64,000 bases of DNA, from positions 1 to 64,000 of the forward strand of contig JAUHWL010000004.1 of the NCBI GenBank assembly GCA_030424545.1, given 5' to 3'. A program made the position numbers and the translations under genes. This document shows, one piece after another, positions 6,636 to 28,110 of this stretch. The notes under the pieces were generated by a model. That model worked only from the letters and a program-made list of their open reading frames with translations, had not been told where the DNA came from and did not search any database. Position 1 is the stretch's first letter; every line of letters starts with the position of its first letter. Source of the DNA: Bacteroidia bacterium (GTDB lineage Bacteria > Bacteroidota > Bacteroidia > Flavobacteriales > Schleiferiaceae).

Positions 6636-6932
6636 CTACTTGGCCTCCATGGTTTTTAAATATTTAGCCTCTAAATAAAAAGTTCCAAATGGAATTAGTG
6701 ATGCTGCAAAGGCCAGAAGTACAAAGCTAAATTTCCACTTATATTCTATCCAGCAACGCAACCCCATAAAGAGGTAGAGAACAAACAATAAACCGTGAAC
6801 CATACCCACAATGTAGTTGGGTTGGGTAATATCTAACATGTATTTTAAAGGCATTGTGATGGCAAAAAGCAGATAACTTATGCCTTCTAATATGGCGATG
6901 GTACGAAACTGGCGAAGAAGTGTTTTGAACAT
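6636..6932 (-). CDS. DUF3817 small membrane protein
   Basis: 98 aa with three predicted membrane helices (about 13-30, 40-62 and 70-88). The opening R-x-x-A-x-L-E-G-x-S-Y and central G-x-x-H-G-x-L-F patterns are typical of DUF3817. Function unknown. It is the first gene of the metal efflux operon, 51 bases before the pump. Confidence 0.8.
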   Translation of the reverse strand: MFKTLLRQFRTIAILEGISYLLFAITMPLKYMLDITQPNYIVGMVHGLLFVLYLFMGLRCWIEYKWKFSFVLLAFAASLIPFGTFYLEAKYLKTMEAK

Positions 6933-7140
6933 TTTATGTGATTACTTTTCTTGTAAATATGAGGGTTAAACTATTTCTGGCGAATATAAGTTTTTCCCCA
7001 ATCTAAGTTGTTCTTTATTGCCAGTATATTGTTAAAATAGGGCCTAATTCAGAATTAATCTTGATTAAAAAAAAATGGAGAATGCCAATCTTATTTAATT
7101 ACTTCGCCAACAAGAATCCACTTGATTTAAACCGTGAAAA

Positions 7141-7638
7141 GTGGAGGTAAAAAAGTGTACACATTGTGCAGTAAATTTAGATGTATTGAAAACGAAAAAA
7201 CAAATTATTGGTAGGTTTGATGTAGTAGATTTACCAAAAATGGATCTTTTTGGTTTGGATGCAAAAGTGGATACCGGAGCGTTTACCAGTGCTATTCATT
7301 ATCATCATGCAGAAGTTATTGTTAAAGACGGCAAAAAGGTGCTGCACTTTACTTTGTTAGATCCTACTCACCCAGAATACAACGACAAAGATTTTTACTT
7401 CGATACCTTTACGACAAGAGAAATTAAAAACTCTTTTGGGCAAAGTGAAGAACGCTATATTATTGAAACCGACATTACTTTGTTTGGCAAAAATTACGTT
7501 ACAGAGTTTTCTTTAAGCGACAGAGGAAGCTTAAAATTCCCCATACTTTTAGGAAGAAAATTATTGCAAAAAGATTTTGTGGTAGATGTTTCTAAAACCA
7601 ATTTATCTTATAAACAAAAAACAAATCTTACAGAATGA
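7141..7638 (+). CDS. RimB-like putative ATP-dependent zinc protease
   Basis: 165 aa. The aspartic-protease-like motif [11 protein letters not shown] lies near residues 41-51, and the closing G-R-K-L-L motif ([18 protein letters not shown]) near 139-156. Both are hallmarks of the family of small retropepsin-like proteins linked to RimK. The start is GTG; an in-frame TTG at about codon 15 is an alternative, because the first 14 residues, which include a CxxC pair (CTHCA), are unusual for the family. The stop overlaps the next start as ATGA, so it is translationally coupled to RimK. By analogy it may trim or process glutamylated substrates; the substrate is unknown. Confidence 0.78.
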
Positions 7639-8549
7639 GGGTAGCTATACTTTCTAGAAATGCAAATTTATATTCTACAAAAAGGCTGGTAGAAGCATGC
7701 GAAAAACGCGGCCACACTGCCGATGTTATTGATGCACTAAAATGTACGTTGGTGATGGAAAAAAACAATCCGTCTATCATTTACAAAGGGCACGTATTAC
7801 CGCATTATGATGCTGTAATTCCACGTATTGGTGCCTCAGTAACATTTTATGGTTCGGCAGTGGTAAGGCAATTCGAAATGCAAAAAGTGTTCTCTGCGGT
7901 AGAGTCTCAGGCGCTTATTAGATCTAGAGATAAACTGCGCAGTTTGCAAATACTTTCTAGGGCAGGATTAGATCTGCCCAAAACCGTTTTTACCAATTAC
8001 TCTAGAGATACAGATTCTATCTTAAAAGGTGTGGGAGGCGCACCCGTAATCATTAAATTACTAGAGGGAACCCAAGGTCTGGGTGTTGTGCTGGCCGAAA
8101 ACGAAAAAGCCGCGGCATCGGTAATTGAAGCGTTTCACGGACTAAAAGCACGGGTTATTGTGCAAGAATTTGTAAAAGAAGCGGGTGGGGCAGATGTACG
8201 TGTTTTTGTGGTTGATGGCAAAGTGGTGGGCGCTATGAAACGCCAAGCCAAAGAAGGCGAATTTCGTTCTAACCTGCACCGAGGAGGGACATCCTCTATT
8301 ATAAAACTTACACGAAAAGAGCAGGCTGCAGCCATCTTGGCGGTTAAGAAACTAGGCCTTAGTGTGGCTGGTGTAGATTTACTGCAAAGCAAACGCGGCC
8401 CGCTAATTTTAGAGGTAAACTCATCTCCGGGATTAGAAGGAATAGAAAAAGCCACAGGCATTGATATAGCCGAAAAAATTGTTGAATTTTTAGAGGCCAA
8501 TACCAAAGCCCCCAAAAAACGAATTCAGAAAGATAAAATAAACGCCTAG
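7635..8549 (+). CDS. rimK: RimK-type alpha-L-glutamate ligase (ATP-grasp)
   Basis: 304 aa, the usual RimK length. It has an N-terminal pre-ATP-grasp domain ([20 protein letters not shown]), a central R-S-R-D-K-L segment, and ATP-grasp motifs: [20 protein letters not shown] (nucleotide binding), [18 protein letters not shown], and the Mg2+-binding [15 protein letters not shown] near the end. RimK enzymes add glutamate to C-termini, classically of ribosomal protein S6. The genes on either side (RimB-like protease, zinc deacylase-like hydrolase) suggest a peptide-modification pathway. The C-terminus is a Lys-rich tail. Confidence 0.9.
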
Positions 8550-8551
8550 CT

Positions 8552-9493
8552 GTGAAGGAAATCGTAATCGATGGCAAGCGCATTTTGCCAGGAGAAAATG
8601 TGCAAATCAACGCGCTCATTGCACGGTTGCCCACGCGCACACCCATCAATATACCGGTTTTTGTTTCGCGAGCACTGGTAGATGGCCCAACGCTTTTGGT
8701 CATGGCGGGCATGCATGGCGATGAAACCAATGGCATAGAAATCATGCGCAGGTTTATCTCGTCTAAAGCAAATGTACCTACCACCGGAACGGTGATTGCC
8801 ATTCCTGTTTTTAATGTATATGGATTTATAAACAACAGCCGTGCGCTTCCCGATGGCAAAGATTTAAACCGCTCATTTCCCGGGTCTAAAACCGGATCGT
8901 TGGCCTCGCGCATTGCGTTTTTTATGTCGTCACAAATATTGCCACTTATAGATTTCGGATTAGATTTTCATACGGGCGGAGCCAGCAGAAACAACTATCC
9001 GCAAATTAGAGCAGCGTTTGAACTGGAGAAAGAACGAGAATTGGCTGATGTTTTTGGAGCACCTATTTTAATTAAATCGCCTTTTAGAGAAAAATCGTTG
9101 CGCAAAACAGCTGCCAAAGCAGGCAAAGCCATTTTGGTGTTTGAAGGAGGCGAAACTCTACGCCTACGCAAGCAAGTTGTAGATGTGGGCTACAATGGTA
9201 TTTTAAGAGTGATGAAACATTTGGGTATGCGAGACACCGCACCAGAAGAAAACCAACTGCCCATATTTATAAACAACTCGGCATGGTTGCGCGCCAAACA
9301 CGCAGGCATGTTTCACCTAAGTGTGCGCAATGGTACGCGGGTAGAAAAAAAACAAGTTATAGGCTACATCACGGGGCCTTATGGGCAGTTCGAACATAAA
9401 ATACACGCCCCAAATGCCGGGGTAATTATTGGCCTAAACAACTTCCCCGTGGTAAACATGGGCGATGCCTTGGTGCATATTGGTACGGAGTAA
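8552..9493 (+). CDS. Succinylglutamate desuccinylase/aspartoacylase-family zinc hydrolase
   Basis: 313 aa with a GTG start two bases after rimK stops. Zinc ligands of the M14-like fold are visible: M-H-G-D-E (H and E) near residue 56 and D-F-H-T-G-G near 135. The catalytic-glutamate strand is probably VFEGGETLR near 205. A C-terminal lipoyl-like beta domain ends in HAPNAGVIIGLNN, as in the wider AstE/AspA group. The reaction is amide hydrolysis; the actual substrate, perhaps a glutamyl-modified product of RimK, is inferred from position only. Confidence 0.85.
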   Translation: MKEIVIDGKRILPGENVQINALIARLPTRTPINIPVFVSRALVDGPTLLVMAGMHGDETNGIEIMRRFISSKANVPTTGTVIAIPVFNVYGFINNSRALPDGKDLNRSFPGSKTGSLASRIAFFMSSQILPLIDFGLDFHTGGASRNNYPQIRAAFELEKERELADVFGAPILIKSPFREKSLRKTAAKAGKAILVFEGGETLRLRKQVVDVGYNGILRVMKHLGMRDTAPEENQLPIFINNSAWLRAKHAGMFHLSVRNGTRVEKKQVIGYITGPYGQFEHKIHAPNAGVIIGLNNFPVVNMGDALVHIGTE

Positions 9494-9601: not shown

Positions 9602-10477
9602 ATGAGCAATCTAACATTTTCTGGGCACGATACCTTTCATTGTCGCCAATTTTGGCTTAAAAAAGCTTTTGATTTTCGTTTAAATGGTAATAGTTTTAAT
9701 GATGATGACGCATCTTTAGAGCTTGGTGTTGGTAAAAACATGGTCACGGCCATCCGATTTTGGTCGAGGTGTTTTCAAATATTAGATGCAGAAGACAAAC
9801 CAAGTGTACTTGCAAATAAGCTTTTTTCATCAAAAGGATGGGATCCTTATTTAGAAGATTACGGCAGTTTATGGCTACTTCATTATTTATTAGTTACAAG
9901 TGGTCAAGCTTCAACATTTAACATAGTTTTTAATGAGTTAATAAAAGAAAGGCCTGAGTTTGTTACTGATATTTATATTGACTTTATAAATAGAAATAAA
10001 GAAGGTGATTTTAATCAAAACACTTTAAAGAAAGATTTTACTGTTTTTTACAGGACTTACTATGCTGATTTTAAGTCGAGTGATATCGAAGAAAGTTTTA
10101 CTGGGATATTAAGTGAATTGAATCTACTAAAGCAAATTCAAAAATCATTTGTGGATAAGGACGGTAAAGTAAAAAGCCGTGAAGTATGGTTAATAGAAAG
10201 ATCCACAAGAAATGAAGTCCCTCTTCAGATTATTTTGTTTGCAATTCTTGACCAACACCCTGATAGTCTATCGATTGATTTCGAAAGACTTTATAGTAGT
10301 TTGAATAGCGTTGGTTCTGTCTTTGCTTTGAGTAAAGAGGGGTTAACAATAATTCTTGAAAGGCTAGCTGAAGAGCTTGAATATGGAATAACCTTTAGTA
10401 ATGAAGCCGGAATACGTGAGCTACAGTTTAAGAATAAATTGATTAAAGAATTGATATTAGAGGATTATTATGGCTAG
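9602..10477 (+). CDS. DUF4007 protein, SspB-like (DNA phosphorothioation)
   Basis: 291 aa. The N-terminus F-S-G-H-D-T-F-H-C-R-Q-F-W-L-K-K-A-F-D-F is the diagnostic start of DUF4007, followed by E-L-G-V-G-K-N-M-V-T-A-I-R-F-W and a segment rich in aromatic residues (YGSLWLLHYLL). DUF4007 proteins are found with DNA phosphorothioation genes; SspB, described as a nicking enzyme, has this domain. I chose the ATG at 9602 because the conserved domain begins there; an in-frame TTG lies 15 bases earlier. It overlaps the ATPase gene by 8 bases. With its two downstream partners it forms an SspBCD-like set. Confidence 0.82.
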   Translation: MSNLTFSGHDTFHCRQFWLKKAFDFRLNGNSFNDDDASLELGVGKNMVTAIRFWSRCFQILDAEDKPSVLANKLFSSKGWDPYLEDYGSLWLLHYLLVTSGQASTFNIVFNELIKERPEFVTDIYIDFINRNKEGDFNQNTLKKDFTVFYRTYYADFKSSDIEESFTGILSELNLLKQIQKSFVDKDGKVKSREVWLIERSTRNEVPLQIILFAILDQHPDSLSIDFERLYSSLNSVGSVFALSKEGLTIILERLAEELEYGITFSNEAGIRELQFKNKLIKELILEDYYG

Positions 10478-13400
10478 TAAGTTTACTACATCTGTTAACA
10501 TTATTCGAGATGCCAACAAACAGTTTGAATACATTGCTACACCAAATGCGGTACGGATAGCGGAACAACTTGGGCATGACTTTAGATCCGGTATTCATTC
10601 CTTCATCTTAATAGGTTCTTACGGTACAGGTAAATCGTCATTTTTAATGGCGTTCGACCAATCATTGAGAGCCAAAGGAACTTTTAAACTTGATTTTGGT
10701 TTTAAACCAAAAAATATAAAATCCATTCAGATAGTTGGGCAGTATCAATCGCTTATTAAATATTTTCATGAGTTACTTGATATTCAAGATGATTTTGATG
10801 GCAACCAAAAAATATTTGATTCTTTATATCGGTTGTCAGAAGAAAATAACCTCTTAGTAATTTACCTTGATGAATTTGGTAAATTTTTAGAATACGCATC
10901 TAAGCATAATCCAGAAAAAGAACTTTATTTTTTACAGCAACTTGCGGAGTTTGTTAATGACCATAATCGAAATATTATTCTAATAAGTACGCTACATCAA
11001 AACTTTGAAGCTTATGGAGCTCATATTGCTGATGATAGCCAAAAAAAAGAATGGCGTAAGGTTAAAGGCCGTTTTAAAGAGTTAACATTTAATGAGCCTG
11101 TAGAACAATTACTATACCTAGCAGCAAAGAAATTAAATGGAAGAGGGAAACTAAGTGAAGACTATCTTGATTTAGCAATCAAAAAACATATTCTTCCGTT
11201 TTCAGCCGAATCTGTAAAACAAATAGAAGGAGATTTAGCACCTCTCGATATAATTTCAGCAGCAGTTCTTACTAAATCATTGCAGCAATATGGTCAAAAC
11301 GAACGTTCTCTATTTACATTTCTTGAAAGCGATTTAAAATCTGAAAATTGGGCCAATGTTCCTTTGATTTACGATTATCTGTTAGCGTCTTTTTATTCGT
11401 TTTTAAATTCGGCTTACAATACTCAATATCGTAATTGGCAAGGAATGCAAGCAGGAATTGAAAGGATTGAAGTTGGAGATATTGCTTCTCGTGCAATTAA
11501 ATTAGATTTATTTAAAACAATAGGGCTTTTACAATTATTTGCTGCTAAGTCAGCTCAAGTGGACAAAGAAATGCTTCAGAGCTATTTTAAGAGTCTTTAT
11601 AGCTATGATGAAATAGAAAATGCTTTACAAGAACTGGAGAAAAAAAGTATTGTTAGATTCACTAAATTCAATAATTCGTATAAAATAATCGAAGGTACTG
11701 ATGTTGATTTTGACCAAGAGCTTATTAAAGCAGAAGAAGCAGTAGACAGATCATTTGATCTTATTTCATCACTTTTAGAACATTTTGATTTTCCGTATAT
11801 ACAAGCTAAAGAAGCGAGTTATAATACAGGTACGCCAAGAATTTTTGGATTTAAAATTTCTGAAAACCCTATTAATGATATTAAACCTGAAGGAGCAATA
11901 GACGGGTATATTAATCTTGTTTTTAATGAAGAGAAAGATTGTATAAACATCATAAAAAAAGTTTCATGTAAACAGGAAGAAGCTATTTTGTATGGTTTTT
12001 TTACAAATGCCAAAGCTATTCAAGAACACATCTATGAAATCTTAAAAACAAAAAAAGTTTTAAGTGATAATAGAGAAGATCATGTTGCAAAGCAAGAATT
12101 TGAAAAGATTCTTGCTTCACATGAAAAATTATTGAGTCATGAAGTTTTAGGTTCATTATATACAAATAAAGTCAGTTGGATTTTTAATGGAAAAGAAATA
12201 CAAGGTATTTCTAATCAACAAAAATTGAATGTTGCTCTATCACAAATTTGTAGAAAAGTTTATTGTAAAACACCAAAATTCAATAATGAATTATTGAATA
12301 AGCATAAGATTTCTACATCAATACATACAGCTAGAAAAAACTATTTTCAACGGTTAACTGAATTTTGGGATAAACGAGATTGTGGTTTTGAAAAAGAAAA
12401 GTTTCCTCCCGAAAAGACTATTTATAAGTCTTTATTGGTAGATAATGAAATGCATAAAAACATTGAAGGAACTTGGGAATTAAAAGAGCCTTGTGCGAAA
12501 AATGGTTTTGATGAGATTTGGAGAATTTCGAAATTTTTTCTTGATTCATCCAGAGAGGAAAAACGCAGTATATCCGAACTTTATGACTTACTCAGTGAAA
12601 AGCCTTATAAATTAAAACAAGGATTAATAGACTTTTGGGTTCCAACTTTTTTGTTTATCAACAGAGGTGATTTTGCATTATATGAAAATGGTAAGTTCAT
12701 ACCTTATTTGAATGATACAATATTGTACATGCTTACAAGGCAAGTTGATAGTTTTCAAATTAAGGCGTTTGAAATTTCAGGGCTTCGATTAAAAGTATTT
12801 AACAAGTATCGTGAGTTTTTAGAGCAAGGAAAGAAGAGTATGTTGAGTAAAGATGGCTTCATACAGAGCGTGAGACCATTTCTTGTGTTTTATAAAAATT
12901 TAAACGAGTATGCTAAAAACACAAGCCGCTTATCTTCAGAAGCAACGGAATTACGTAAGGCCATAGTTGATGCACAAGATCCAGAAAAGACATTTTTCGA
13001 GACAATTCCAAGGGCATTAAAAATGGACATTCAATCATTTGAATCTTCTGACGAACAATTGGCAGCCTTTGCCTCAAAACTGAATGAGGCGATTGACGAA
13101 ATAAAAAATGCTTATGCAGAATTACTTAACCGTTTTGAGAGATTCATAACATCCGAAATCTTTAATAAAAAATTGAACTTTGAAGAATATAAAAATGCTC
13201 TTGCTAAGCGGTATAAAGAAGTAAAAGAGCATCGGTTATTGCCAAGGCAAAAAGTGTTTCTTGCTCGCCTGAACTCGCCATTAGATGACCGGGATAGTTG
13301 GTTAGCTTCAATTGGCCAAAGTTTAATTGGAAAGCCTTTGGATAGAATTACAGATCAGGAAGAAGAGATTCTGAAAGATAGGATGATTCATATGATCCAA

Positions 13401-13634
13401 GAGTTGGATAATTTACAAGCAATACACAAAGTAAAAGCAGAAGAAGGTGAGCAAATCTTTAAATTAGATCTCACAAGCGAAGGAGGAACGAAAAGTACCA
13501 ACGTGCGCATTAGCAAAGAAAAGATGGACGAAGTTGACAAATCGTCTGATGCTATTGAAAAATTGCTGGGCAAAAACAAACAAATAAGATTGGCTGTTCT
13601 AAGTAAATTAATAAATAAAGAATTGAATAAATGA
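10470..13634 (+). CDS. Large P-loop ATPase, SspC-like
   Basis: 1054 aa. Walker A G-S-Y-G-T-G-K-S-S lies at residues 49-57 and Walker B LLVIYLDEF at ~128-136. The N-terminal ~250 residues look like an AAA/STAND ATPase; the remaining ~800 are mostly helical with no enzyme motif I recognise, and residues ~820-960 are probably coiled coil (many E/K/A/L). It overlaps the genes before and after it (8 and 4 bases). By position and partners it corresponds to the ATPase of SspBCD-type single-strand phosphorothioation, where ATP hydrolysis is thought to drive DNA handling. It also resembles BREX-type large ATPases in general shape. Confidence 0.78.
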   Translation: MASKFTTSVNIIRDANKQFEYIATPNAVRIAEQLGHDFRSGIHSFILIGSYGTGKSSFLMAFDQSLRAKGTFKLDFGFKPKNIKSIQIVGQYQSLIKYFHELLDIQDDFDGNQKIFDSLYRLSEENNLLVIYLDEFGKFLEYASKHNPEKELYFLQQLAEFVNDHNRNIILISTLHQNFEAYGAHIADDSQKKEWRKVKGRFKELTFNEPVEQLLYLAAKKLNGRGKLSEDYLDLAIKKHILPFSAESVKQIEGDLAPLDIISAAVLTKSLQQYGQNERSLFTFLESDLKSENWANVPLIYDYLLASFYSFLNSAYNTQYRNWQGMQAGIERIEVGDIASRAIKLDLFKTIGLLQLFAAKSAQVDKEMLQSYFKSLYSYDEIENALQELEKKSIVRFTKFNNSYKIIEGTDVDFDQELIKAEEAVDRSFDLISSLLEHFDFPYIQAKEASYNTGTPRIFGFKISENPINDIKPEGAIDGYINLVFNEEKDCINIIKKVSCKQEEAILYGFFTNAKAIQEHIYEILKTKKVLSDNREDHVAKQEFEKILASHEKLLSHEVLGSLYTNKVSWIFNGKEIQGISNQQKLNVALSQICRKVYCKTPKFNNELLNKHKISTSIHTARKNYFQRLTEFWDKRDCGFEKEKFPPEKTIYKSLLVDNEMHKNIEGTWELKEPCAKNGFDEIWRISKFFLDSSREEKRSISELYDLLSEKPYKLKQGLIDFWVPTFLFINRGDFALYENGKFIPYLNDTILYMLTRQVDSFQIKAFEISGLRLKVFNKYREFLEQGKKSMLSKDGFIQSVRPFLVFYKNLNEYAKNTSRLSSEATELRKAIVDAQDPEKTFFETIPRALKMDIQSFESSDEQLAAFASKLNEAIDEIKNAYAELLNRFERFITSEIFNKKLNFEEYKNALAKRYKEVKEHRLLPRQKVFLARLNSPLDDRDSWLASIGQSLIGKPLDRITDQEEEILKDRMIHMIQELDNLQAIHKVKAEEGEQIFKLDLTSEGGTKSTNVRISKEKMDEVDKSSDAIEKLLGKNKQIRLAVLSKLINKELNK

Positions 13635-14770
13635 GTGAATTAAAGCACCTTATCGGTATATCTGGCGGAAAGGATAGTGCAGCACTTGCTATCTACCTGA
13701 ACAATCTATACCCACAGCTTGACCTTATTTATTATTTCTGTGATACAGGTAAAGAATTGGACGAGACCTATCAGCTTATCGAGAACATTGAGATTTATTT
13801 GGGTAAAAAGATTACACACTTAAAGCCCGAAGACGCTAAGAAGGCTGATGAAAATCCTTTTGATTATTACTACAAAGCTTATCGTGGATATTTACCTTCA
13901 TCGGTTGCGCGTTGGTGTACCAAGCAAATGAAGCTAGATCCGTTCGAGAATTTTGTTGGAAACGATTCTGTTGTTAGTTATGTTGGTATTCGTGGAGATG
14001 AAGATCGAGAAGGATATATTTCTAAAAAGTCTAACATTCAATCCATATTTCCATTTAGAAGAAATATGTGGGCGGAGGATGTTGTTAGAAAGTTGCTAGC
14101 AAATAGTAATAGAAGTAACTTATTAGAAATTTATGCGAATCAAGTTTCTGGCAAAGAGCTTGATAGAATTGTTAGTATTATAAATCAAGATTTAGTTCTG
14201 GAAGATCGTAATCCACAACAAAATAGAAGAGCTTTTCTTGACAAGCAAAACCTATTATTAGACAAAGGAACCGCGCTTTATAACCATGTCACTTTCGATT
14301 GGCTAAAATCGACAGACTACCCACTAGCCAAAGAAACCGACTTCCCACTTCTGGACAATGAAGACAATTTAAACCGTGCGGACATTTTTAAATTATTAGA
14401 AGACTCAGGAGTAGGAGTACCGGAATATTATAAGAAACTTGAATACGAAGTTGATGGTGAAAAAGGTGAATACGCTAGAAGCCGCTCCGGTTGTTATTTC
14501 TGTTTCTTCCAACAAAAAATAGAATGGGTTTGGCTATATGAGCAGCACCCGGACTTATTTGTGCAAGCTCAGAAATACGAGAAAATTGATGAGGGCTTTA
14601 CTTGGAACCAAGAAGAATCTCTTGAAGATTTAATACAACGAGAACGTATTGCCCAAATTAAAAGAGAACATTTAAAAAGAGCCAATCGACAAAAATCGAA
14701 AGGCTCAAGTTATTTAATTGATATTTTAGACGATACTGAGGGAGAAAGCTGTATTAGTTGTTTTGTGTAA
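13631..14770 (+). CDS. PAPS-reductase-like PP-loop protein, SspD/DndC-like sulfur-transfer enzyme
   Basis: 379 aa. The PP-loop S-G-G-K-D-S is at residues 11-16, followed by LIYYFCDTGKE, typical of the ATP pyrophosphatase/PAPS-reductase fold. C96 (RWCTKQMK), C288-x-x-C291 (GCYFCFF) and a C-terminal C374-x-x-C377 could hold an iron-sulfur cluster, as in DndC. In phosphorothioation systems this protein activates backbone phosphate and receives sulfur from a cysteine desulfurase. No desulfurase is encoded nearby, so a housekeeping IscS/SufS would have to supply it. It overlaps the ATPase gene by ATGA and ends 6 bases from the end of the convergent operon. Confidence 0.85.
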   Translation: MSELKHLIGISGGKDSAALAIYLNNLYPQLDLIYYFCDTGKELDETYQLIENIEIYLGKKITHLKPEDAKKADENPFDYYYKAYRGYLPSSVARWCTKQMKLDPFENFVGNDSVVSYVGIRGDEDREGYISKKSNIQSIFPFRRNMWAEDVVRKLLANSNRSNLLEIYANQVSGKELDRIVSIINQDLVLEDRNPQQNRRAFLDKQNLLLDKGTALYNHVTFDWLKSTDYPLAKETDFPLLDNEDNLNRADIFKLLEDSGVGVPEYYKKLEYEVDGEKGEYARSRSGCYFCFFQQKIEWVWLYEQHPDLFVQAQKYEKIDEGFTWNQEESLEDLIQRERIAQIKREHLKRANRQKSKGSSYLIDILDDTEGESCISCFV

Positions 14771-14776
14771 TTTAAT

Positions 14777-16036
14777 TTAAGGTAGAATTGGTAATTGGTT
14801 AATTAATTCTTGGACATTGGTTTCGTCAACATTCAATTTTGATGAATATTGAGTTTTTAATTTAGTCAATTCTGATGTGTTAATTACATCTCTACCATAC
14901 ATGAATAAAAACAATAACTTAGTCAAAACACTTGAGCCCATTAACATAACTTTTTCTTGAGGACTCCATAATACTGAGGTCCAAGGCTTTTGATTCAAAT
15001 TAAGATTCATTCTGTTTAATCTTCTAAAGATAAATTTGAAATCCTTTTTTTCTCTTTTTCTAATTTCAATTGATGCTTGAACAAAAGGCAATAACCCCAC
15101 CGGTCTAAATAGTAAATTACCTCCAGTTTCTTTATTACGATATTTATTTGCTTTTTGCGACTGTTCTAATAATGCATAGTCTTATACATCTTTCATCATT
15201 ATTTTGAAGTCCTCCCAAAATTTAATACAAAAGTCTTTGAATTTGTTTATTTCATCTTCTTTTGGGCGAAATTTTAAATAATTTTCAAGTGAAAGTTTGT
15301 CTCTTTCAGATTTTGGATTCGTATTATTTTCGTTTCTAAATAGTTTGAGTAGCTCTCGGTTACACTGATAAAGCGTAATTATAGATGTTATTGATTCTTT
15401 ATCATTATCCGGAATGGCTTTATTTTGTGATTTAGTTAAGCGTTTCCCTTTAAACAAATCAAACTCTTCGATTAAATGTCTTGTAACAATTGCTACTGAA
15501 TCATCTTCATCTAGTGCAATAATATCGTCCATTGTTACAGGTTTGGCATATCTATTTAATGTAGAAAATAACCTTCTTGATTGCCTCATTCCTTCTTCAT
15601 CATTTTTATGCCCAATAAAAATTGCAGTTATTTCTTCATTTGCAAGTGCATCATTATCTGCCAATGCAGCCTTAATGCCTTCGACTCTATGTTGCCCATC
15701 TAAAGGAAAAATTTTATGATTCCCAGGAAATTCTAAAATCCCAATTTGGTTCGTTGTGAAATCATCATAATCAAATTTTATTTGCCTCCAATCAGGATAA
15801 TCATTGTAAACAGCGAGAATTAGGGCATTAAAAAATCTTTCGGGTTGGTTTATTATATATTCTTTAATACTTAAATAATTAGAAGTGATACTTCTTTGGA
15901 TCAAATCTTTTAAATTTTCACTTTTATGAAGTTCATCATCAATTCTTGACACAAAATCATTTACTTCTTTAAAAGTTAACCGTGCTATATAAAATGTTCG
16001 ATTTCCTATATGAGCTCTAATTGCTGGTATTTTCAT
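14777..16036 (-). pseudogene. DndB-like DGQHR-domain gene split by an in-frame TAA
   Basis: The first part (16036-15182, 284 aa) has the family motif D-G-Q-H-R at residues 113-117 and FIGHKNDEEGMRQSRRLFSTLNRYAKPV, typical of DndB/DGQHR proteins. It ends at TAA 15184-15182. The same frame then stays open for 134 codons to a stop at 14777. That tail reads KETGGNLLFRPVG, which matches the usual late motif of this family, and then a helical end. So one ~419-codon gene carries a single nonsense codon. DndB is a DNA-binding regulator of phosphorothioation genes. Expression as two pieces (GTG at 15100), readthrough, or a dead gene are all possible. The start overlaps the upstream stop as TAATG. Confidence 0.8.
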
Positions 16037-16563
16037 TAGCCAAATGCTTTAATTGCTTCACTTACAGTTTTATTGGGTATTTTGTCATTCATTGGAAAAA
16101 GAAGAGCATTGATAATATCGGCCTCAATTTGAATAATATCTTCGTTTGATTGTAAAGGATAATAAGCTAGTCTTATAACTTTACCCCATGTTCTAAGCAT
16201 TCGATAAATTTTTGGCCTCTCTTTATTTGTGTTGTAATGATTAAAATATTCTCTAACTCTTTTTCGTAAATTTTGTGATGGTGTGTATTGGGCTCTTCCT
16301 ATATAAAAAGGAAATGCTGAGATTGAAGGTATTATAGAACAAGGTAGATAGAACAAATACAGTCCTCCTACATCATTAGGAATACTGTCTATCTCATCAC
16401 TAATCCCAGTTGCTTGGTTATTCAAGTATTTAATAGAATTCCAATTTGAAAAATCCAAGTTAATATTCGGATGGTTGAAATTCAATCGCTGTTCTTCTGA
16501 AAGTACATATGTTAATTTCTTCATATGTAATTGCGCCCCTAAGTCAAATGCATTTCCATCCAT
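16036..16563 (-). CDS. GIY-YIG-like nuclease domain protein
   Basis: 175 aa. It contains a GIY-like G-L-Y at residues 67-69, Y-I-G at 87-89, then a basic helix (NLRKRVREYF) with R100/R103, and an acidic residue E147 in IQIEADIINALL: the order expected of a GIY-YIG active site (GIY, YIG, Arg, Glu). It also ends with a conserved-looking N-D-K-I-P-N-K motif. An internal ATG at codon 14 (16524) is an alternative start. It lies in the convergent operon next to the phosphorothioation genes and could be its DNA-cleaving component; that is inference. Confidence 0.68.
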   Translation of the reverse strand: MDGNAFDLGAQLHMKKLTYVLSEEQRLNFNHPNINLDFSNWNSIKYLNNQATGISDEIDSIPNDVGGLYLFYLPCSIIPSISAFPFYIGRAQYTPSQNLRKRVREYFNHYNTNKERPKIYRMLRTWGKVIRLAYYPLQSNEDIIQIEADIINALLFPMNDKIPNKTVSEAIKAFG

Positions 16564-16575
16564 CTTTTAAAAATA

Positions 16576-17088
16576 TTAATTACCTATAAAATCCAAAAAA
16601 GCAGTCAGCTGTAAAAAGTAATTTGGGTTGTCATCCAGCTTTTCGGTTATCAACGTGAGGCCTCCGTTTGTATAAGATTCCATGGTTTCAATCAATGCTT
16701 TTACAGCATCAGATATCTCAATTTCCCCCTTGTCTAAGGCAATAAAGTCAATATCTGTATTAGCAACACAAGCCATAAACATATAGGCCTGAAGCTTACT
16801 AAAATCTTTTCTATCTAGTCGGTTTCCTTTATTACCCCAATACATAATATGATGACTGAAATCTATTTTTTTTTGGCCCTCTCCAATAGGAGATAATTCA
16901 TTTTTATAGAGGCCGAGAAAAAAGGCATACATATATAATTCATAAGCATTAGCGAAATGTTTACCCAAGTATGTTTTAGATTTTTCAGCACCTCCTCCAT
17001 ATTGCGAAAATTGTTGAAAGAGGTTTTCTTTAAACTTTACATTGTATTTAGGAATTTTAGTTTTCCATATATCAAAAAGACTTTCCAT
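16576..17088 (-). CDS. Unrecognised defence-operon protein
   Basis: 170 aa with no family I recognise. It is predicted mostly helical, with aromatic-rich blocks (YELYMYAFFLGLYKNEL; FSKLQAYMFMACVAN) and no signal peptide or clear membrane helix. It starts two bases after the SMC-like ATPase ends and stops 12 bases before the GIY-YIG gene, so it belongs to the same transcript. It might be a partner of the ATPase, like the small subunits in Dnd-type clusters. Confidence 0.6.
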   Translation of the reverse strand: MESLFDIWKTKIPKYNVKFKENLFQQFSQYGGGAEKSKTYLGKHFANAYELYMYAFFLGLYKNELSPIGEGQKKIDFSHHIMYWGNKGNRLDRKDFSKLQAYMFMACVANTDIDFIALDKGEIEISDAVKALIETMESYTNGGLTLITEKLDDNPNYFLQLTAFLDFIGN

Positions 17089-17090
17089 AA

Positions 17091-19238
17091 CTAAAGTGCA
17101 ATTACATTGGAGTTTAACGTACGAAGATTATTAGCGTCAAATGGGCGTTCTAACTTTACCCAAAGAGCTTTTTGCCGTTTTACATTTTTAAATTCAGGTT
17201 TGATAAAGAGGTTTTCAGTTTGTTCATCTTTCCCAATAAAATCTTTTAATAATAAAATTATTTGATTACTTGTACTAGATATAATATTCAAAAATTCTTT
17301 TGTTTTACTAGACCCAAAAGAAGATGTGGGCGCGTCAAATATTAACGGGAAGCCTTCTTGTCTATTTTCTTCTGCTAAATTGGAAATTGCAAATAATACT
17401 GAAATATGCATAGAGGTAGCAAGTGACTGATTAGGGTTGTAAAACCTTCTGTCACCTTCATATAATTCAACATCAATCTTTATTTTACTATCTGATATTT
17501 TATGTTTAACAAAAACAATATTTCCAGTAAAAGCTCCTTTGTTAACTTTTTTAAAGTAGCTATTTGCCTTTGTTTGAAGTAGTTTTAAAAACTCATCAAA
17601 TTTGATTTCTTTAGTTTGTTCAAAAATTAATTCAATATCTCTAATAATATCTCTACTTTTAATTAGAAATGAATTTGCCGACTCTAAATCTATAGCATCT
17701 TTTCTCTTTTCCAATTCTTCAATTTCTTTTGTAAGGACATCAATTTTTACTTGGTAGGAATCCATTCTTTTATTTACACCAATCCTATCTTCTTGCCAAC
17801 CATTATAGTTTTTTAATACTTGACCAAGTCTTTCCTCTGAATCAATAGAGTTAGCTAAAATTTTACTTCTTTCCTCCTTTTCAGTATCAATTTTATGCTG
17901 CAAATCTTCAACAGTAATTTTTCTTTTTTGATTGTATTCAAACAAGTCTTTTATTTTTTGTTCAATTCCTTTTAAATCCTTCAATTTATCATTATGTAGG
18001 TTAAGTTGTGTAACTAACCCTGATATATAATCATTCTTGAAGCATTGTTCCACATCTTCAACTTTTACTGGATTTTGAGATTCTAAATAAGCTTTTAAAC
18101 GTTTCTTCATAAACTCGTATTGATGGGACCCTTTTGGAGCTGGTGTATCACATACTTTACAGTGTTCATCTTTAATGAGCTCTTCCATAACCTCTTTATT
18201 GGGTACATTTAAATTAAGAGGTAAGGAATCGTTTAATAGATTAATGATATTTTCTCTAGCTCCTTGTTTTCTGCCTTCTTCAATATCGTGTTCTCTCTGA
18301 AGTGATCTTCGTTTATTATTTAGTTCTGTAACTTTATGCTTGTACTTTTCAAAAACAGGTTCAAAACTTGCTAGTATCCAGGAATCATCAAAAAGGTAAG
18401 TGGTATATCTTTCATGAATACTTGATAATTGTGTAGCTATATCGTTTTGAATCTTCTTAATACGATTATTTACAGTTAAAAGTGCTTCTGCATTATCTAC
18501 AAACATTCCTGCATTTTGTATTTCTCCGTCTAGCTTATTTAGTTGAACGTTTGCAGATTCATATAATTTACTGAAATTAGTAAGATGCTGTTTTTTCTCT
18601 TTTAGCTCTTTTTGAATTCGATTGTATTTATTTTGATTGCTTGTGTTTCTTTTTGATGCTGTGGCAACAGCTTCTTCTGCTAAAACATGAAGGGATTTGC
18701 TTCTAACAGCATATTTCTCATATGATCTTGATTCTGAAAATAGGTTTACTAGATTGATTAGTGCATCAGCATTATCAAATACATTTAATTCAGATTCACC
18801 TTTAAATAATGAATATTTTCTAATTTCATTAGGAAATACTTGTTTTAATAGGCGTTCGGCATCAACTTGTTCACGTTCCCCTTTTTTATTTTCTTCAATT
18901 CCTTCGAAATAAGAAATAGAAGTAGAGCATTCAAATTCATCATCTTTAGTAACTGTGAACGATCGAGCTAAATATCGTTTTTCTTCATATTGTTCTACTT
19001 CCATAGCAACTCTCACTACAAAAGTTTCACCCACTGCAACTTCATCAAGTTTTTTGGCCGAAGCAATTAATTCAAGGTTATAATTACCTCCTTTAAAAAG
19101 CCAATCTAATGCCTCAAAAAACTTTGTTTTTCCTTCCCCATTTTCTCCTAGAATTATATTTAACCCGTTTGCAAACTCGAATTGATTGATATCATAGTAA
19201 CACATATAGTTTTCAATCGTAACTTTTTTAATAATCAT
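17091..19238 (-). CDS. SMC/RecF-like ATPase, DndD-like
   Basis: 715 aa. It opens with IIKKVTIENYMCYYD, typical of RecF/SbcC/DndD. Walker A G-E-N-G-E-G-K-T lies at 31-38, a long coiled-coil middle (about 190-590) carries a zinc-hook-like C360-x-x-C363, and near the end come SLATSMHISV (signature-like) and Walker B F-P-L-I-F-D-A-P-T-S-S-F-G with its D-loop. Such proteins clamp or translocate DNA. Its start overlaps the stop of the 77-aa gene by ATGA. A role as the DNA-engaging motor of the restriction arm fits, but DndD homologues also act in modification. Confidence 0.8.
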   Translation of the reverse strand: MIIKKVTIENYMCYYDINQFEFANGLNIILGENGEGKTKFFEALDWLFKGGNYNLELIASAKKLDEVAVGETFVVRVAMEVEQYEEKRYLARSFTVTKDDEFECSTSISYFEGIEENKKGEREQVDAERLLKQVFPNEIRKYSLFKGESELNVFDNADALINLVNLFSESRSYEKYAVRSKSLHVLAEEAVATASKRNTSNQNKYNRIQKELKEKKQHLTNFSKLYESANVQLNKLDGEIQNAGMFVDNAEALLTVNNRIKKIQNDIATQLSSIHERYTTYLFDDSWILASFEPVFEKYKHKVTELNNKRRSLQREHDIEEGRKQGARENIINLLNDSLPLNLNVPNKEVMEELIKDEHCKVCDTPAPKGSHQYEFMKKRLKAYLESQNPVKVEDVEQCFKNDYISGLVTQLNLHNDKLKDLKGIEQKIKDLFEYNQKRKITVEDLQHKIDTEKEERSKILANSIDSEERLGQVLKNYNGWQEDRIGVNKRMDSYQVKIDVLTKEIEELEKRKDAIDLESANSFLIKSRDIIRDIELIFEQTKEIKFDEFLKLLQTKANSYFKKVNKGAFTGNIVFVKHKISDSKIKIDVELYEGDRRFYNPNQSLATSMHISVLFAISNLAEENRQEGFPLIFDAPTSSFGSSKTKEFLNIISSTSNQIILLLKDFIGKDEQTENLFIKPEFKNVKRQKALWVKLERPFDANNLRTLNSNVIAL

Positions 19239-19468
19239 CTTACAATTGTGTTTAAGTATTGAGTTAACATTTCGTATAGTCTTCCATCGCTAATAGCAGA
19301 AGAGTTTTCTAGTTCATCAACTAGCAATGCTATAGATTTTATAATTGGTTTTTCAGAATTCAAAGCATCTAAATGTCTCATGTTTTGTTCTTCACTACTC
19401 AAATCATATTTATCCTTCAAAAGATTATGATTTAAGAAACTCTGTAGAATTTCGTCTTTTCTAGCCAT
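19235..19468 (-). CDS. Small protein coupled to the SMC-like ATPase
   Basis: 77 aa, probably all-helical, with no recognised family and no cysteines. It overlaps the helicase gene by 8 bases at its start and the ATPase gene by ATGA at its end. The tight coupling and predicted soluble helical nature suggest an adaptor or accessory subunit. Confidence 0.6.
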   Translation of the reverse strand: MARKDEILQSFLNHNLLKDKYDLSSEEQNMRHLDALNSEKPIIKSIALLVDELENSSAISDGRLYEMLTQYLNTIVR

Positions 19469-21698
19469 TAATATTGTTTTCAGTTAGTCTATCGTTAATA
19501 TCAAAAAGGTTAAGGTTGTAATATTCTAGGATGCTTTCAAGAGCTTCAAAAGTGTCCATTTTGTTTAGTGCTAAAAAAGAAAAATCAACTACACGTTCTA
19601 ACTCCTTTTTTACCATGGTTTTTTCCATATTGAAAAGTTCGGACCAAGTATCTATTCTTGGGATAACAACTAAGTCGTGAATTACTGCTAATGATTTTTC
19701 TTTGTGTGTACGAAGTACTCTGCCCCGTCTCTGAATAAATTGACGTGGATTTCCAGTGCTAGCACAAAAAATAGCTAGTTCAGAACGCGGTACATCTACA
19801 CCTTCATCAAGACATTTCATAGAAGTTAATACATGAAGTCTACCATTTTCAAAGTCTTCAAGAATTGTGTCCCTATTAGATACACTTGAAGTATATTGTT
19901 TAACTAATATTGAAAAGTCTATATCTGATACAGCACGAGTATATTCATGAATTAATTTCGCATCTTCTTCTTCATCTTCAGTGTGTTCGTCTGATATGGC
20001 ATAATCAGGATCCTTACCTTCAGGTACATATATAAGTGAGAAGTGCAAGTTCCCTCGTTCAATAAATTCTTCTTTTAGAATTTGTTTAAATACCGGAAGT
20101 TTATTTTTTGCCTTATGGATAATCCTTTTTCTAATAAGCAGAAGCATTTCTACCTCTGGCTCATTTTTATAAGTTCCGGTGTTTGAATCAAAATATCGCA
20201 TCAATCGTCTCGAAATCTCAGCATATTCTGCAAGTTCTTCTGGGTCTAACTCTACTAAATGAGGATAGTATTTATATTGACATAAAACCTCGTTTTCGAG
20301 AGCCAACTCCATAGAATACTCAATAACATAAGGTGGTTGGTCATTAAAAAATTCTTGGATTAGTTTATTTCCTTCCTCATCATACTTACGTCTTATAGTA
20401 GCTGACAGTCCAATGCGTTTTTTTAAATGGATTGTTTTGAGAGTATTAGCGACCTTTCCAGCTCCTAAGTTATGAGCCTCATCAGCAATAAAGAGTGTTT
20501 TCGAATCTAGCTTTTTGAAATAATCTTGAAACTTTTTTCGATGGAAGGATGCATATGTAATAATGATAATATACGATGTGTTAACATACCTTTTAGCGGT
20601 ATTGAAGAAGGATATTTTATTGTCCCATTTCTCTTTGGAACTTACAGTTACAATGTTCTTAAAATTGAATTTATAACACTCTTTTTGCCATTGTTTTACT
20701 AGAGCAATAGTAGGTACGACAATTACAGCTTTATAGCTATCAGTCTCTTTATATTCGTTTAGAAGGCAGTTGAGTGATGTTAGAGTTTTGCCAGTCCCAG
20801 TTGCCATCGAAAATATACCTTGATAATTATTTTCTTTCCATTTGTTAAAGGCATCTATTTGATATTTCCTTGGGCCTTCAGGGTATGGAAACCGAGGGGA
20901 TTGAATTGTTTTTTCAAGTTTTTTTTCAATTGTATTTATTACAGTTTTTAATTTCCTATTTGTATTCTTACTAGATTTTAATATTGTTAATTCTTTTTCA
21001 TCACTCAACAAATCATGTAAGTCTTTATTTCCAAAGTATTCCCGAATAGCTATTTCTACATCCCTAGCTTGTATATATTCAACTTTATCGCTTTTTCCTG
21101 AAAATAACTCTTCAAAGTATTCTTCTTGAGATTCAATCATTTTGCTGGAACGACTGTTTTCCCATTTTAAAAAGGCACTTAACTCCTCATTATTTTCTAA
21201 CATGCCATATGCCGTAAAATTGCAAGAAGCTTTAAAGCCAACTTTGGTTTCTGTATCATAGAAGACACCACTTTTGTAATGTGATATTCCTTTTTTTCTT
21301 TTAGGTTTTACGAGTACAATTTCTATTCTTTTATTGGCAATAAGCCATGCCATGCATTCAAAAAAGTGTGTGCCGTAATCGTCAAGTAGATATTTTAGGT
21401 TTTTAATGTCAGAAATATTAATTAACCCATCTTTATCAGATGATTCTTCGGCCATCAGCAAAACACCCTGATCTTGTTTTGACAAGATATTGTTTGCAAC
21501 GACTCTCATCTTTCCGCCATTTGCAATAAACTGAGCAAAACCAATGGAGAGAACATTAATTGCCGAAAAACTAAAATATCCAAGAAGTAAATCGAATCGA
21601 TTTGAATTAGCTAGTGCACTTAAATAAAATTCGAGAGGTTCGCGATCGCTATCAGAACGATATTCGCGGTTGTACGGCCAATCTATATTTTGAAGCAT
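19461..21698 (-). CDS. PLD-like nuclease fused to a superfamily 2 DEAD/DEAH helicase
   Basis: 745 aa. Residues ~1-200 resemble a phospholipase D-type nuclease: a H140-x-K142 motif (ISHYKSGVF) and then CNFTAYGMLENNEE, the usual S/C-x-N...N-E-E pattern. From ~270 there is an SF2 helicase: motif I ATGTGKT (~299-305), DEAH (406-409), SAT (432-434), a DEGVDVP motif V and QFIQRRGR motif VI (~654-661). The combination is typical of restriction and defence helicases. It is the first gene of the minus-strand operon, whose promoter should lie in 21699-21947. A single HxK motif suggests that the nuclease would need to dimerise. Confidence 0.82.
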   Translation of the reverse strand: MLQNIDWPYNREYRSDSDREPLEFYLSALANSNRFDLLLGYFSFSAINVLSIGFAQFIANGGKMRVVANNILSKQDQGVLLMAEESSDKDGLINISDIKNLKYLLDDYGTHFFECMAWLIANKRIEIVLVKPKRKKGISHYKSGVFYDTETKVGFKASCNFTAYGMLENNEELSAFLKWENSRSSKMIESQEEYFEELFSGKSDKVEYIQARDVEIAIREYFGNKDLHDLLSDEKELTILKSSKNTNRKLKTVINTIEKKLEKTIQSPRFPYPEGPRKYQIDAFNKWKENNYQGIFSMATGTGKTLTSLNCLLNEYKETDSYKAVIVVPTIALVKQWQKECYKFNFKNIVTVSSKEKWDNKISFFNTAKRYVNTSYIIIITYASFHRKKFQDYFKKLDSKTLFIADEAHNLGAGKVANTLKTIHLKKRIGLSATIRRKYDEEGNKLIQEFFNDQPPYVIEYSMELALENEVLCQYKYYPHLVELDPEELAEYAEISRRLMRYFDSNTGTYKNEPEVEMLLLIRKRIIHKAKNKLPVFKQILKEEFIERGNLHFSLIYVPEGKDPDYAISDEHTEDEEEDAKLIHEYTRAVSDIDFSILVKQYTSSVSNRDTILEDFENGRLHVLTSMKCLDEGVDVPRSELAIFCASTGNPRQFIQRRGRVLRTHKEKSLAVIHDLVVIPRIDTWSELFNMEKTMVKKELERVVDFSFLALNKMDTFEALESILEYYNLNLFDINDRLTENNING

Positions 21699-26855: not shown

Positions 26856-27497
26856 TTACGCAACTGTTACAGAGCCTAAATAAGAGCTGTTAGCGACTTT
26901 AGAGCCATCTTCTGAGATAAACCCTAAGAACACTTCAACATCTTCACCAGTGTATTCAGAAGGCACGGAAATGGTCTCAGTTCCGGCTGATCTTGCTGGT
27001 CCAGCTGTGGTGAATACTGCTTCTTGGCGTGTGGTGTTCAATAGAACAATCAGAGCTTTGTCTGTTGCCTGTGCGCTACCACTTCCTGAATTGTCGTCCC
27101 AGGTGATTTGAACATCTCCAGCACTTGGAGAAGAAGCTGCTCCATTAGCTGCACCTGAGAGATTTCCACGGGTAACCAATGCATTTGCATAGTCAACCAT
27201 GAAGTTTGGATAAGCTCCCGTGATTGCGTTGTTCAGGTTGTATGACATGGCCGCATTGAACTGCGTCATCTTGTTAGCATACAACTTGAAGCCTACTCTC
27301 AGGAAGTCAGTCATTGGTTGCAAGAACCTTAGAACTGTAGAGAATTTGGAACGTTGGTCAACCTGACCTTCTGTTCTCGGGTTGGTTACGTTGGCAGGCT
27401 TGATTCTCATATAGTCAATGCCCTTCCAAGTTCCACCTACGACATTTCCGACCTTGCCGGAGAAGCCGCCTAATACACCTTGTGAAATTTTTCCCAT
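26856..27497 (-). CDS. DUF6266 family protein
   Basis: 213 aa. The N-terminus MGKISQGVLGGFSGKVGNVV, then the WKGIDYMRIKP segment and Q-x-x-Q/R-x-K-F (VDQRSKFSTVLRFL), are typical of DUF6266, a family common in Bacteroidota chromosomes and elements. A Gly/Ser-rich hinge (about 115-125) leads to an Ig-like beta C-terminal domain (VQITWDDNSGSGSAQATDKALIVL). Function unknown; a phage- or surface-structure role has not been shown. It is the outermost gene on the left of the island and has its own terminator. Confidence 0.75.
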   Translation of the reverse strand: MGKISQGVLGGFSGKVGNVVGGTWKGIDYMRIKPANVTNPRTEGQVDQRSKFSTVLRFLQPMTDFLRVGFKLYANKMTQFNAAMSYNLNNAITGAYPNFMVDYANALVTRGNLSGAANGAASSPSAGDVQITWDDNSGSGSAQATDKALIVLLNTTRQEAVFTTAGPARSAGTETISVPSEYTGEDVEVFLGFISEDGSKVANSSYLGSVTVA

Positions 27498-27675
27498 TGC
27501 TTTTTAAATTTTACGGGGTTAAACAAATGCTTGGACTTGGCACGGACTAAACACGGCTTTATCCTATCGCATCTAAAATACTCCAAGAAGTATGCAAGGT
27601 TGTTGGCTTGGGTGCTGTTGCATTAGAACACTTCTTTTTGCTTGTCAGGTAGTTACAAGTTGGCAGGGTAGGTAT

Positions 27676-28110
27676 TTATCCTGCACCTGTGTCACGAAGT
27701 AGCTGGCAGAAAATTGACCTTCTTGCTGTATCTACCATCTTTAATGAGACCTTGATTTTTTCTTCATGGATTTCTAAAAGTCTGAGTGCGTTGATTGCCA
27801 TTTCAAATGCCTGGGCTTTGGCACTTGCTTTCGCTTCTGACTCTGCTAGGTGCTTTCTCAGCTCGTGAATAGATATGAAAGGAATTACAGATCCACGGAG
27901 AAAGAACTGGAAGGATTTGGAACGCCACAAACCGAAGCATAGCCAGTATAAAAATTCCCTGTCTGCTTCATTTTCAACAATACAAACAAAACAATTCGGG
28001 CAAGGTGTATTGAGTGGTTTACCACTATTCAATCCTTTATTCAGGATAAAGAAGTGGGGTTTGGTGTAGGTGGTTTCTAGTCTGTGTGTTTTTAAGCGAA
28101 ACGATTTCAT
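27676..28110 (-). CDS. Element-encoded protein, possibly DUF6943
   Basis: 144 aa from the ATG at 28110 (MKSFRLKTHRLETTYTKPHF). The open frame continues far upstream, but that part is low-complexity and overlaps poly-purine DNA, so I exclude it. It shows F-F-I-L-N-K-G-L-N-S-G-K-P-L and C-P-N-C-F-V (a CxxC), then E-F-L-Y-W-L-C-F-G-L-W, followed by a helical tail. The pattern matches my memory of DUF6943, a family seen on Bacteroidota elements, but I cannot verify it. The 28111-28370 stretch upstream appears non-coding. Confidence 0.6.
   Translation of the reverse strand: MKSFRLKTHRLETTYTKPHFFILNKGLNSGKPLNTPCPNCFVCIVENEADREFLYWLCFGLWRSKSFQFFLRGSVIPFISIHELRKHLAESEAKASAKAQAFEMAINALRLLEIHEEKIKVSLKMVDTARRSIFCQLLRDTGAG

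Follow-up and report, generated by a model that had tools for sequence, protein, structure and literature searches.

A putative Ssp-type phosphorothioation writer paired with a PbeABCD-like operon and a GIY-YIG–DGQHR gene pair in a Bacteroidia genome

The four-gene effector module PbeABCD was first described together with the phosphorothioate (PT) writer DndCDEA (Xiong et al. 2019, PMC6459918; papers given with a PMC number are cited here from parts of their text). It consists of a phospholipase D (PLD)-ResIII-helicase protein (PbeA), the 66-aa PbeB, an AAA ATPase of pfam13476 (PbeC) and the 152-aa PbeD. In haloarchaea each of the four pbe genes aided virus resistance, pbeA in part only; virus that carried PT escaped, and in the absence of PT the PbeABCD module gave no protection and caused no toxicity (PMC6459918). 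PbeD has since been reinterpreted as a cognate of DndE, PbeC as a CxC ATP-binding cassette (ABC) ATPase and PbeA as an HKD nuclease joined to a superfamily 2 (SF2) helicase (Rakesh, Aravind and Krishnan 2024, PMC10853773). In SspABCD-SspFGH, an SspBCD writer is likewise accompanied by a separate effector operon (Wang et al. 2021, PMC8092258). Here we analyse a locus in a 64,000-nucleotide stretch of the genome of a Bacteroidia bacterium (GCA_030424545.1, contig JAUHWL010000004.1, positions 1 to 64,000; hereafter the window), in which predicted Ssp-type phosphorothioation writer genes stand beside an operon that is not SspFGH.

Four of the six genes in this partner operon line up, in order, with those of the established PbeABCD module, and its pairing with SspBCD rather than DndCDEA is a recurrent new combination of known modules. 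The other two genes encode a GIY-YIG protein and a DGQHR protein, and they form a recurrent cassette that is found with Pbe, SspFGH and Dnd arms. We give a probability of roughly three in four to the reading that the locus is a composite PT-based defence island, made up of an SspBCD writer, a PbeABCD arm and a separable GIY-YIG–DGQHR arm that would act as a PT-sensing nuclease.

An earlier note on this window, made from the letters and their open reading frames (ORFs), had proposed nine genes in two convergent operons. All nine ORFs, their order and their coordinates are confirmed (Table 1), including the ATG at 9602 as the start of sspB. The three forward sspBCD genes face six genes on the reverse strand, and the two ends that meet, those of sspD and the DGQHR gene, lie 6 bp apart.

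Table 1. Genes of the locus and the evidence for each (positions in the window)
Gene	Positions	Strand	Length	Product and evidence
sspB	9602..10477	+	291 aa	DUF4007 DNA-recognition subunit of the PT writer (predicted); PF13182 3.1e-65; PADLOC SspB 301 bits
sspC	10470..13634	+	1054 aa	Large ORC/BrxC-like P-loop ATPase; PADLOC SspC PDLC02776 1225 bits, nearly full length
sspD	13631..14770	+	379 aa	3'-Phosphoadenosine-5'-phosphosulfate (PAPS)-reductase-like sulfurtransferase; PF01507 1.1e-9; PADLOC SspD PDLC02782 310 bits
DGQHR gene	14777..16036	-	~420 codons	DndB superfamily; TIGR03187 8.1e-29; PF14072 7.8e-30
GIY-YIG gene	16036..16563	-	175 aa	GIY-YIG nuclease (predicted), first cassette gene; conserved active site and structural matches
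pbeD-like	16576..17088	-	170 aa	DndE-fold protein; AlphaFold2 model, mean per-residue confidence (pLDDT) 86.8
pbeC-like	17091..19238	-	715 aa	Coiled-coil ABC ATPase bearing a CxxC (C360, C363); AAA_23 PF13476 7.6e-8
pbeB-like	19235..19468	-	77 aa	Small protein; assigned by position and size
pbeA	19461..21698	-	745 aa	HKD (PLD) nuclease fused to SF2 helicase; PADLOC PbeA PDLC02706 1056 bits, profile 1-722/722

The forward genes match SspB (DUF4007), SspC and SspD, adjacent and in order, and the PADLOC and Pfam scores are strong enough to uphold the earlier naming of the DUF4007 protein, the P-loop ATPase and the PP-loop protein as these three subunits. The sspD product also carries an SGGKDS loop and Cys pairs. 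No other PT writer genes occur at the locus. We considered whether Pbe has its true partner in a Dnd-type writer encoded at another site, and rejected this because one DndC model matched nothing in the whole genome. Characterized SspBCD systems make single-strand PT modifications, at CpsCA. Genes of the class V aminotransferase family (desulfurase type) are encoded in the genome, none of them at the locus itself; one (C6:111567-112661) shares 36% identity and an SAC-S segment with the desulfurase-type gene at the Hyunsoonleella flava locus described below (labels beginning with L denote loci, and those beginning with G surveyed genomes; this one is L087).

BREX type 4 has BrxC, BrxP and DUF4007 in common with Ssp, a homology described in PMC12839542, and in PADLOC the SspC protein does score 225 bits with BrxC, and SspD 33 bits with BrxP. 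The Ssp models score far higher on the same two proteins, however, and PglZ and BrxL were unmatched in the nine genes and ten neighbouring ORFs (with models that lacked a positive control); we hold the reading of this locus as a relative of BREX type 4 to be very improbable. SspFGH as the partner was also rejected. Models of SspF, SspG and SspH found no match at E values up to 0.1 (for PbeA, among its best 25 of 26 families), and in this the window departs from SspABCD-SspFGH; the same models recognize a control locus in Rhizobium K1/93 (786, 722 and 2429 bits, respectively). The earlier note had been unable to map the operon onto SspFGH, and exact orthology is indeed absent. GmrSD, the DUF262 plus DUF1524 type to which SspE and DndI belong, likewise matched none of the nine proteins at E values up to 0.1.

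The effector operon resembles that of DndCDEA-PbeABCD in gene order, domains and approximate protein sizes. It differs in having SspBCD as the writer, in the additional GIY-YIG and DGQHR genes on the effector side, and in the convergent layout. The PbeA protein scores 404 bits with TIGR04095, under the 600-bit cut-off of that model, and H140, K142, S158, N160 and E171 (which we take to be the HKD site) are invariant, together with the helicase motifs, in eight aligned sequences including that of the window. Across eight aligned sequences, again with the window included, both cysteines of the pbeC-like ATPase are invariant. The 77-aa protein has no family model match in Pfam, PADLOC or NCBIfam (and NCBIfam gave none for four relatives), and same-position matches to its gene occur at seven other loci (L028, L036, L087, L088, L090, L092 and L096).

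The 170-aa protein, listed as unknown in the earlier note, has a DndE fold. In a model built from 15 sequences, the best structural match is DndE 4lrv (Z 8.3, root-mean-square deviation 2.7, 103 of 106 residues) and the second is another DndE (Z 7.5), with the next entry at Z 2.2. This ranking comes from a second-look structural aligner; Foldseek alone placed DndE only 20th, at E 4.7. Sequence searches of the Protein Data Bank with profiles of this protein, the DGQHR protein and the GIY-YIG protein returned nothing credible. The other assignments made earlier (a PLD-SF2 helicase fusion, an SMC/DndD-like ATPase and a DGQHR protein) hold in family-model searches. These four genes are the same as those of the CxC ABC-ATPase–DndE systems of PMC10853773, with whose DndE assignment our fold result concurs; that paper couples such systems to DndD-type writers or methylases, and its six mentions of "ssp" are silent on coupling to SspBCD. 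The proposal that the partner operon is a new restriction arm thus survives in part: four of its six genes are of the known Pbe kinds, and what is new is the pairing with Ssp and the GIY-YIG–DGQHR cassette.

Recurrence of the pairing was surveyed in 395 Bacteroidota genomes, including that of the window, with at most two PbeA candidates scored per genome. A solid SspC match is present in 22 of them (G025, G098 and G159 were dropped from an initial 25, with E values of 2e-4 to 2e-5 over short stretches). PbeA matches above 280 bits occur in 10, nine of them nearly full length and one (G270) confined to the helicase part; weaker matches were dropped, and those listed cover only part of the profile, mostly the helicase. 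SspC and PbeA occur together in seven genomes, every time on the same contig and no more than 9 kb apart (Fisher one-sided p = 6.5e-8, or 8.2e-7 without the genome of the window, both uncorrected for relatedness). Had homologues of the two operons never co-occurred elsewhere, this would have spoken against the link proposed in the earlier note; instead, 7 of the 10 PbeA genomes have SspC within 9 kb.

A PbeA profile was run against a collection of species genomes described as covering 84,980 species, and the best 80 of 168 loci were kept. We counted 70 of these 80 as PbeA, dropping ten (L157-L166) with PbeA scores below 100 bits. An Ssp-type writer is present at 28 of the 70, a share that overstates the general frequency because the profile held Ssp-linked PbeA proteins and only the best 80 of 168 loci were kept; DndC is present at 17, and 25 have neither. 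The Ssp-linked PbeA genes are found in Bacteroidota (Hyunsoonleella, Chryseobacterium, Alloprevotella, Prevotella and other metagenome-assembled genomes, or MAGs) and beyond them in Bacillota and in Acholeplasmatales, Fusobacteriaceae and Methanobrevibacter MAGs. A search of plasmid proteins with PbeA matched 120 records, 21 of which cover at least 80% of the query.

Of the 16 Ssp-linked loci that lie outside the Bacteroidota group, 14 have a sulfurtransferase that is longer and resembles BrxP/SspD, and the other two (L114, L122) lie on short contigs. At L106 this long protein scores 259 bits with BrxP and 51 bits with SspD. Several loci from Bacillota and a Methanobrevibacter MAG (L106, L108, L112, L115, L128 and others) carry the long BrxP/SspD gene, sspB, sspC, a desulfurase-type gene and pbeA/pbeC. 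From their gene content, such loci appear to be a second large class of Ssp-Pbe loci.

In a quick tree of 79 PbeA proteins, in which one third of the inner branches are weakly supported (L082-L086 and proteins shorter than 430 aa, such as L146, were dropped), the Ssp-linked proteins fall into three separate lineages. The Ssp or Dnd label changes at least three times over 54 labelled rows, and the Ssp label five times if writer-less loci are treated as different; one effector type has therefore been joined to different writers more than once. Between the window and G265, which has the same nine-gene layout, PbeA is 58% alike and SspC 34%, which suggests that relatives, too, exchange writer and effector. 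Across 13 loci from Bacteroidota, SspC and PbeA distances are correlated (rho 0.68, a value reached in 1 of 2000 permutations).

Gene arrangement binds the two modules further. In H. flava (L087) the genes run in one direction as sspB, sspC, sspD, GIY-YIG, DGQHR, desulfurase, pbeA, pbeB, pbeC, pbeD, and Alloprevotella tannerae (L099) likewise has a single co-directional block. At 20 of the 28 Ssp-linked loci, pbeA has a desulfurase-type gene upstream of it on its own strand, no more than 220 bp away in 19 cases and no more than 25 bp away in 16 (PF00266 was verified for two of these genes), and one adjoins pbeA in G296, G218, G265 and G324. This neighbourhood ties the Pbe operon to sulfur chemistry.

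The cassette requires separate treatment, beginning with its two genes. By sequence, the earlier GIY-YIG call is weak, with a Pfam E value of 0.051 that falls below the family cut-off. It gains support from the active site, because Y69, Y87, G89, R90, R102, E147 and N159 are invariant in seven aligned sequences (the window included), and from structural matches to a low-confidence model (pLDDT 59.6). None of these matches reaches Z 8. Among the 13 best rows, eight are titled GIY-YIG (UvrC at Z up to 6.2, and R.Eco29kI) and one is a restriction enzyme specific for 5-hydroxymethylcytosine. The remaining four are T4 EndoII (Z 7.5), I-TevI (Z 5.2) and Hpy188I (twice, Z 4.8), all of them GIY-YIG enzymes. 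The protein thus combines a GIY-YIG fold, albeit on a low-confidence model, with the catalytic Tyr, Tyr, Arg, Glu and Asn.

The DGQHR gene is interrupted by an in-frame TAA at 15182-15184. What had been listed earlier as a gene of its own at 14777-15100 is the C-terminal remainder of the interrupted gene, and its intact N-terminal part (15182-16036) encodes 284 aa. A genome search finds this single TAA inside a frame that is otherwise open and is conserved past the stop. All six aligned relatives are uninterrupted, two of them being 417 and 415 aa long. The DGQHR motif precedes the stop and conserved C-terminal columns follow it. The stop may represent a recent loss or a sequencing error, and on account of it the second arm is probably impaired in its own genome.

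Of the 395 Bacteroidota genomes, the GIY-YIG gene is found in four and the DGQHR gene in the same four plus one weak match; the two are adjacent in all four. The weak match (G374, 58 bits) concerns a DGQHR-type gene that adjoins DndC and DndD; as no GIY-YIG match accompanies it, it was not counted as a cassette. In all, 13 cassette loci were examined (the window, L036, L037, L087, L095, L099, L104, L183, L186, L187, L188, L189 and L202). Outside this count stand Rhizobium K15/93 and B21/90, from the five plasmid records in which DGQHR matches cover at least 80% of the query, as well as nine plasmid DGQHR matches of less than 60% coverage (H7-H15) and one short viral record (H37). A GIY-YIG match occupies the gene just before DGQHR at 13 of 13 loci (at L202 as a 90-aa fragment).

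PT writer genes are present at 12 of the 13. Nine are Ssp-type (by profile for the window, L036, L037, L087, L095, L099 and L104; by annotation for L186 and L187) and three are Dnd (L183 by profile; L188 and L189 by annotation). Nine of the 13 (G000, G265, G122, G283, L186-L189 and L202) were also found by searches with GIY-YIG or DGQHR only, and eight of those nine have PT genes. In Rhizobium K1/93 the cassette lies beside SspFGH, whereas in Rhizobium NXC14 and Salmonella SARB27 it lies beside Dnd genes that include a separate annotated dndB. In G283 it sits within a dnd operon, between dndD and a gene in which a DndE domain is fused to a HerA-like ATPase. Such a protein, 510 aa long and with the DndE domain at its N terminus, is encoded at L183:7723-9255 within a dnd operon containing the GIY-YIG–DGQHR pair.

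What the cassette does can be approached through its relatives. In SspE and DndI an N-terminal DUF262 domain senses PT, hydrolyses NTP via DGQQR and controls a C-terminal nickase, and the ParB-like superfamily of these proteins includes DndB (PMC9646914, PMC11662687). The cassette resembles them in combining a ParB-like DGQ(Q/H)R domain with a nuclease in a PT-linked setting. SspE and DndI are, however, single proteins (DUF262 plus a C-terminal HNH domain, DUF1524), whereas the window has two; GmrSD itself occurs as one protein or as two (PMC4619093). By this analogy, we infer that GIY-YIG and DGQHR would form a split PT-sensing nuclease working like SspE or DndI.

The pair could also be a regulator, in which DGQHR would control writer expression as DndB does and GIY-YIG would be an accessory or suicide nuclease. 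The window protein is, like DndB, a PT-linked member of the DGQHR superfamily; DndB controls transcription in Streptomyces (review, PMC12707154), its regulation of PT modification in Salmonella is the subject of PMC4507180, and GIY-YIG (URI) nucleases that stand alone at the margins of dnd systems have been proposed as backup suicide effectors (Rakesh 2024, PMC10853773). Yet the cassette protein falls well below the 328-bit cut-off of the DndB equivalog TIGR03233 (72 bits for the truncated window protein, 71 for the full-length L087 relative), and with a cassette profile the cassette DGQHR proteins score 219-286 bits as against 42 for the two DndB proteins of NXC14 and SARB27. This gap, together with the separate annotated dndB in those two loci, indicates that cassette DGQHR is not DndB itself, and the unfailing pairing with a GIY-YIG gene also argues against a regulator. 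We hold regulation to be possible, at odds clearly short of even.

Several observations weigh against a composite PT-based island. For the pbeC-like ATPase, LmuB outscores PbeC in PADLOC (78 against 48 bits). At 14 loci of the other type, SspC and PbeA distances show no clear correlation (rho 0.20, a value reached in 264 of 2000 permutations), and the Ssp-linked share in the scan is inflated, as noted above. At least 19 kb was in view at 12 of the 25 writer-less PbeA loci, so cut contigs cannot account for all of them. The viral contig L202 (IMG/VR), which has a terminase gene, carries GIY-YIG–DGQHR at 6818-9269 beside a D12-class DNA adenine methyltransferase and shows no PT writer in its 16 kb; the cassette may also work with methylation.

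The writer-less loci in particular would fit two independent defence systems sharing an island, with SspBCD an orphan or served by another partner and Pbe acting alone or with methylation. Xiong et al. (2019, PMC6459918) likewise recorded 165 of 553 PbeAC pairs without a nearby modification gene and 155 with a methyltransferase, and Rakesh 2024 (PMC10853773) doubts that Pbe replaces the DndFGH restriction module. Independence is harder to reconcile with linkage that is repeated in three PbeA lineages, with the desulfurase-type gene so often upstream of pbeA, with the single co-directional blocks of H. flava and A. tannerae, and with the PT requirement of haloarchaeal PbeABCD (PMC6459918). We think it unlikely, and retain the composite island, for which gene identities, folds, recurrent linkage and module swapping are direct observations.

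In the mechanism that we propose for this island, SspBCD, supplied by a cysteine desulfurase encoded elsewhere in the genome, would put PT marks on host DNA. The PbeC ATPase and the DndE-fold PbeD would probably scan DNA, the PbeA helicase/HKD nuclease would attack or stall DNA without marks, and PbeB is probably regulatory. Pbe would in this way follow the PT-dependent logic of haloarchaea with an Ssp mark. The cassette would most likely be a PT-sensing nuclease, with GIY-YIG as its cutting part and DGQHR as a DndB/SspE/DndI-like NTPase sensor. For this genome we infer the PT mark and its motif, the reliance of Pbe on a mark of the Ssp type, and all of the biochemical activities. A wider proposal is tentative and, in our estimation, falls slightly short of an even chance: the cassette would be a transferable split PT-sensing nuclease for Ssp or Dnd writers, two arms would act on one mark, and PbeABCD would read both Ssp-type single-strand and Dnd-type marks.

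The genomic setting is consistent with an acquired island, as GC content is 0.30-0.35 over 10.5-21 kb and 0.34-0.43 elsewhere in the first 30 kb. An AstE-like neighbour gene was detected in 13 of 21 genomes of relatives, that of the window included; among 12 AstE-side stretches of only 3-4 kb, a RimK neighbour occurs in the window's genome only and a type IX secretion system gene in none. Promoter-like sites (51 observed, 54.4 expected) and terminator-like sites (6 observed, 5.6 expected) are close to expectation and so uninformative. Upstream, a single 1444-aa ORF at 2250-6584 fuses a resistance-nodulation-division transporter (ACR_tran) to an outer-membrane efflux (OEP) domain, and DUF6266 and DUF6943 genes lie downstream of the island at 26856-28383.

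Other sets of genes stand beside SspBCD elsewhere. At L029:2596-7108, L031:15346-19762, L030:2836-6311 and L186:10229-14653 the neighbours are an SF2 helicase and a GHKL-type ATPase (HATPase_c_3), with a stand-alone PLD-like protein in three of the four (by weak Pfam scores or annotation), and this set, which we did not trace in the literature, may be one more effector arm. At L034:12805-18373, in another genome of the Bacteroidota, the gene for a 750-aa protein whose N-terminal domain is of GmrSD type comes after SspBCD, and a helicase gene lies two genes further; we regard this as a putative SspE-like arm.

In the literature searched (open-licence papers only) we found no description of the Ssp-Pbe pairing or of the GIY-YIG–DGQHR cassette. 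GIY-YIG genes at the edges of dnd systems were already noted by Rakesh 2024 (PMC10853773), so the association of such a nuclease is, as such, known. One paper predicts Pbe and BREX in Oceanotoga, and its text names neither SspABCD nor SspBCD (PMC11326445).

The pairing bears on the many sspBCD loci without an assigned partner: 2,211 of 2,678 lack both sspFGH and sspE, and further restriction partners have been proposed (Wang et al. 2021, PMC8092258). For a share of these orphans we see a strong candidate partner in PbeABCD, as 7 of the 22 genomes with solid SspC in our survey also have PbeA. Given that PbeABCD is known with a Dnd mark, a writer swap could show whether Pbe reads the PT bond, the motif or the writer proteins. 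The GIY-YIG–DGQHR cassette offers a second, separable candidate nuclease.

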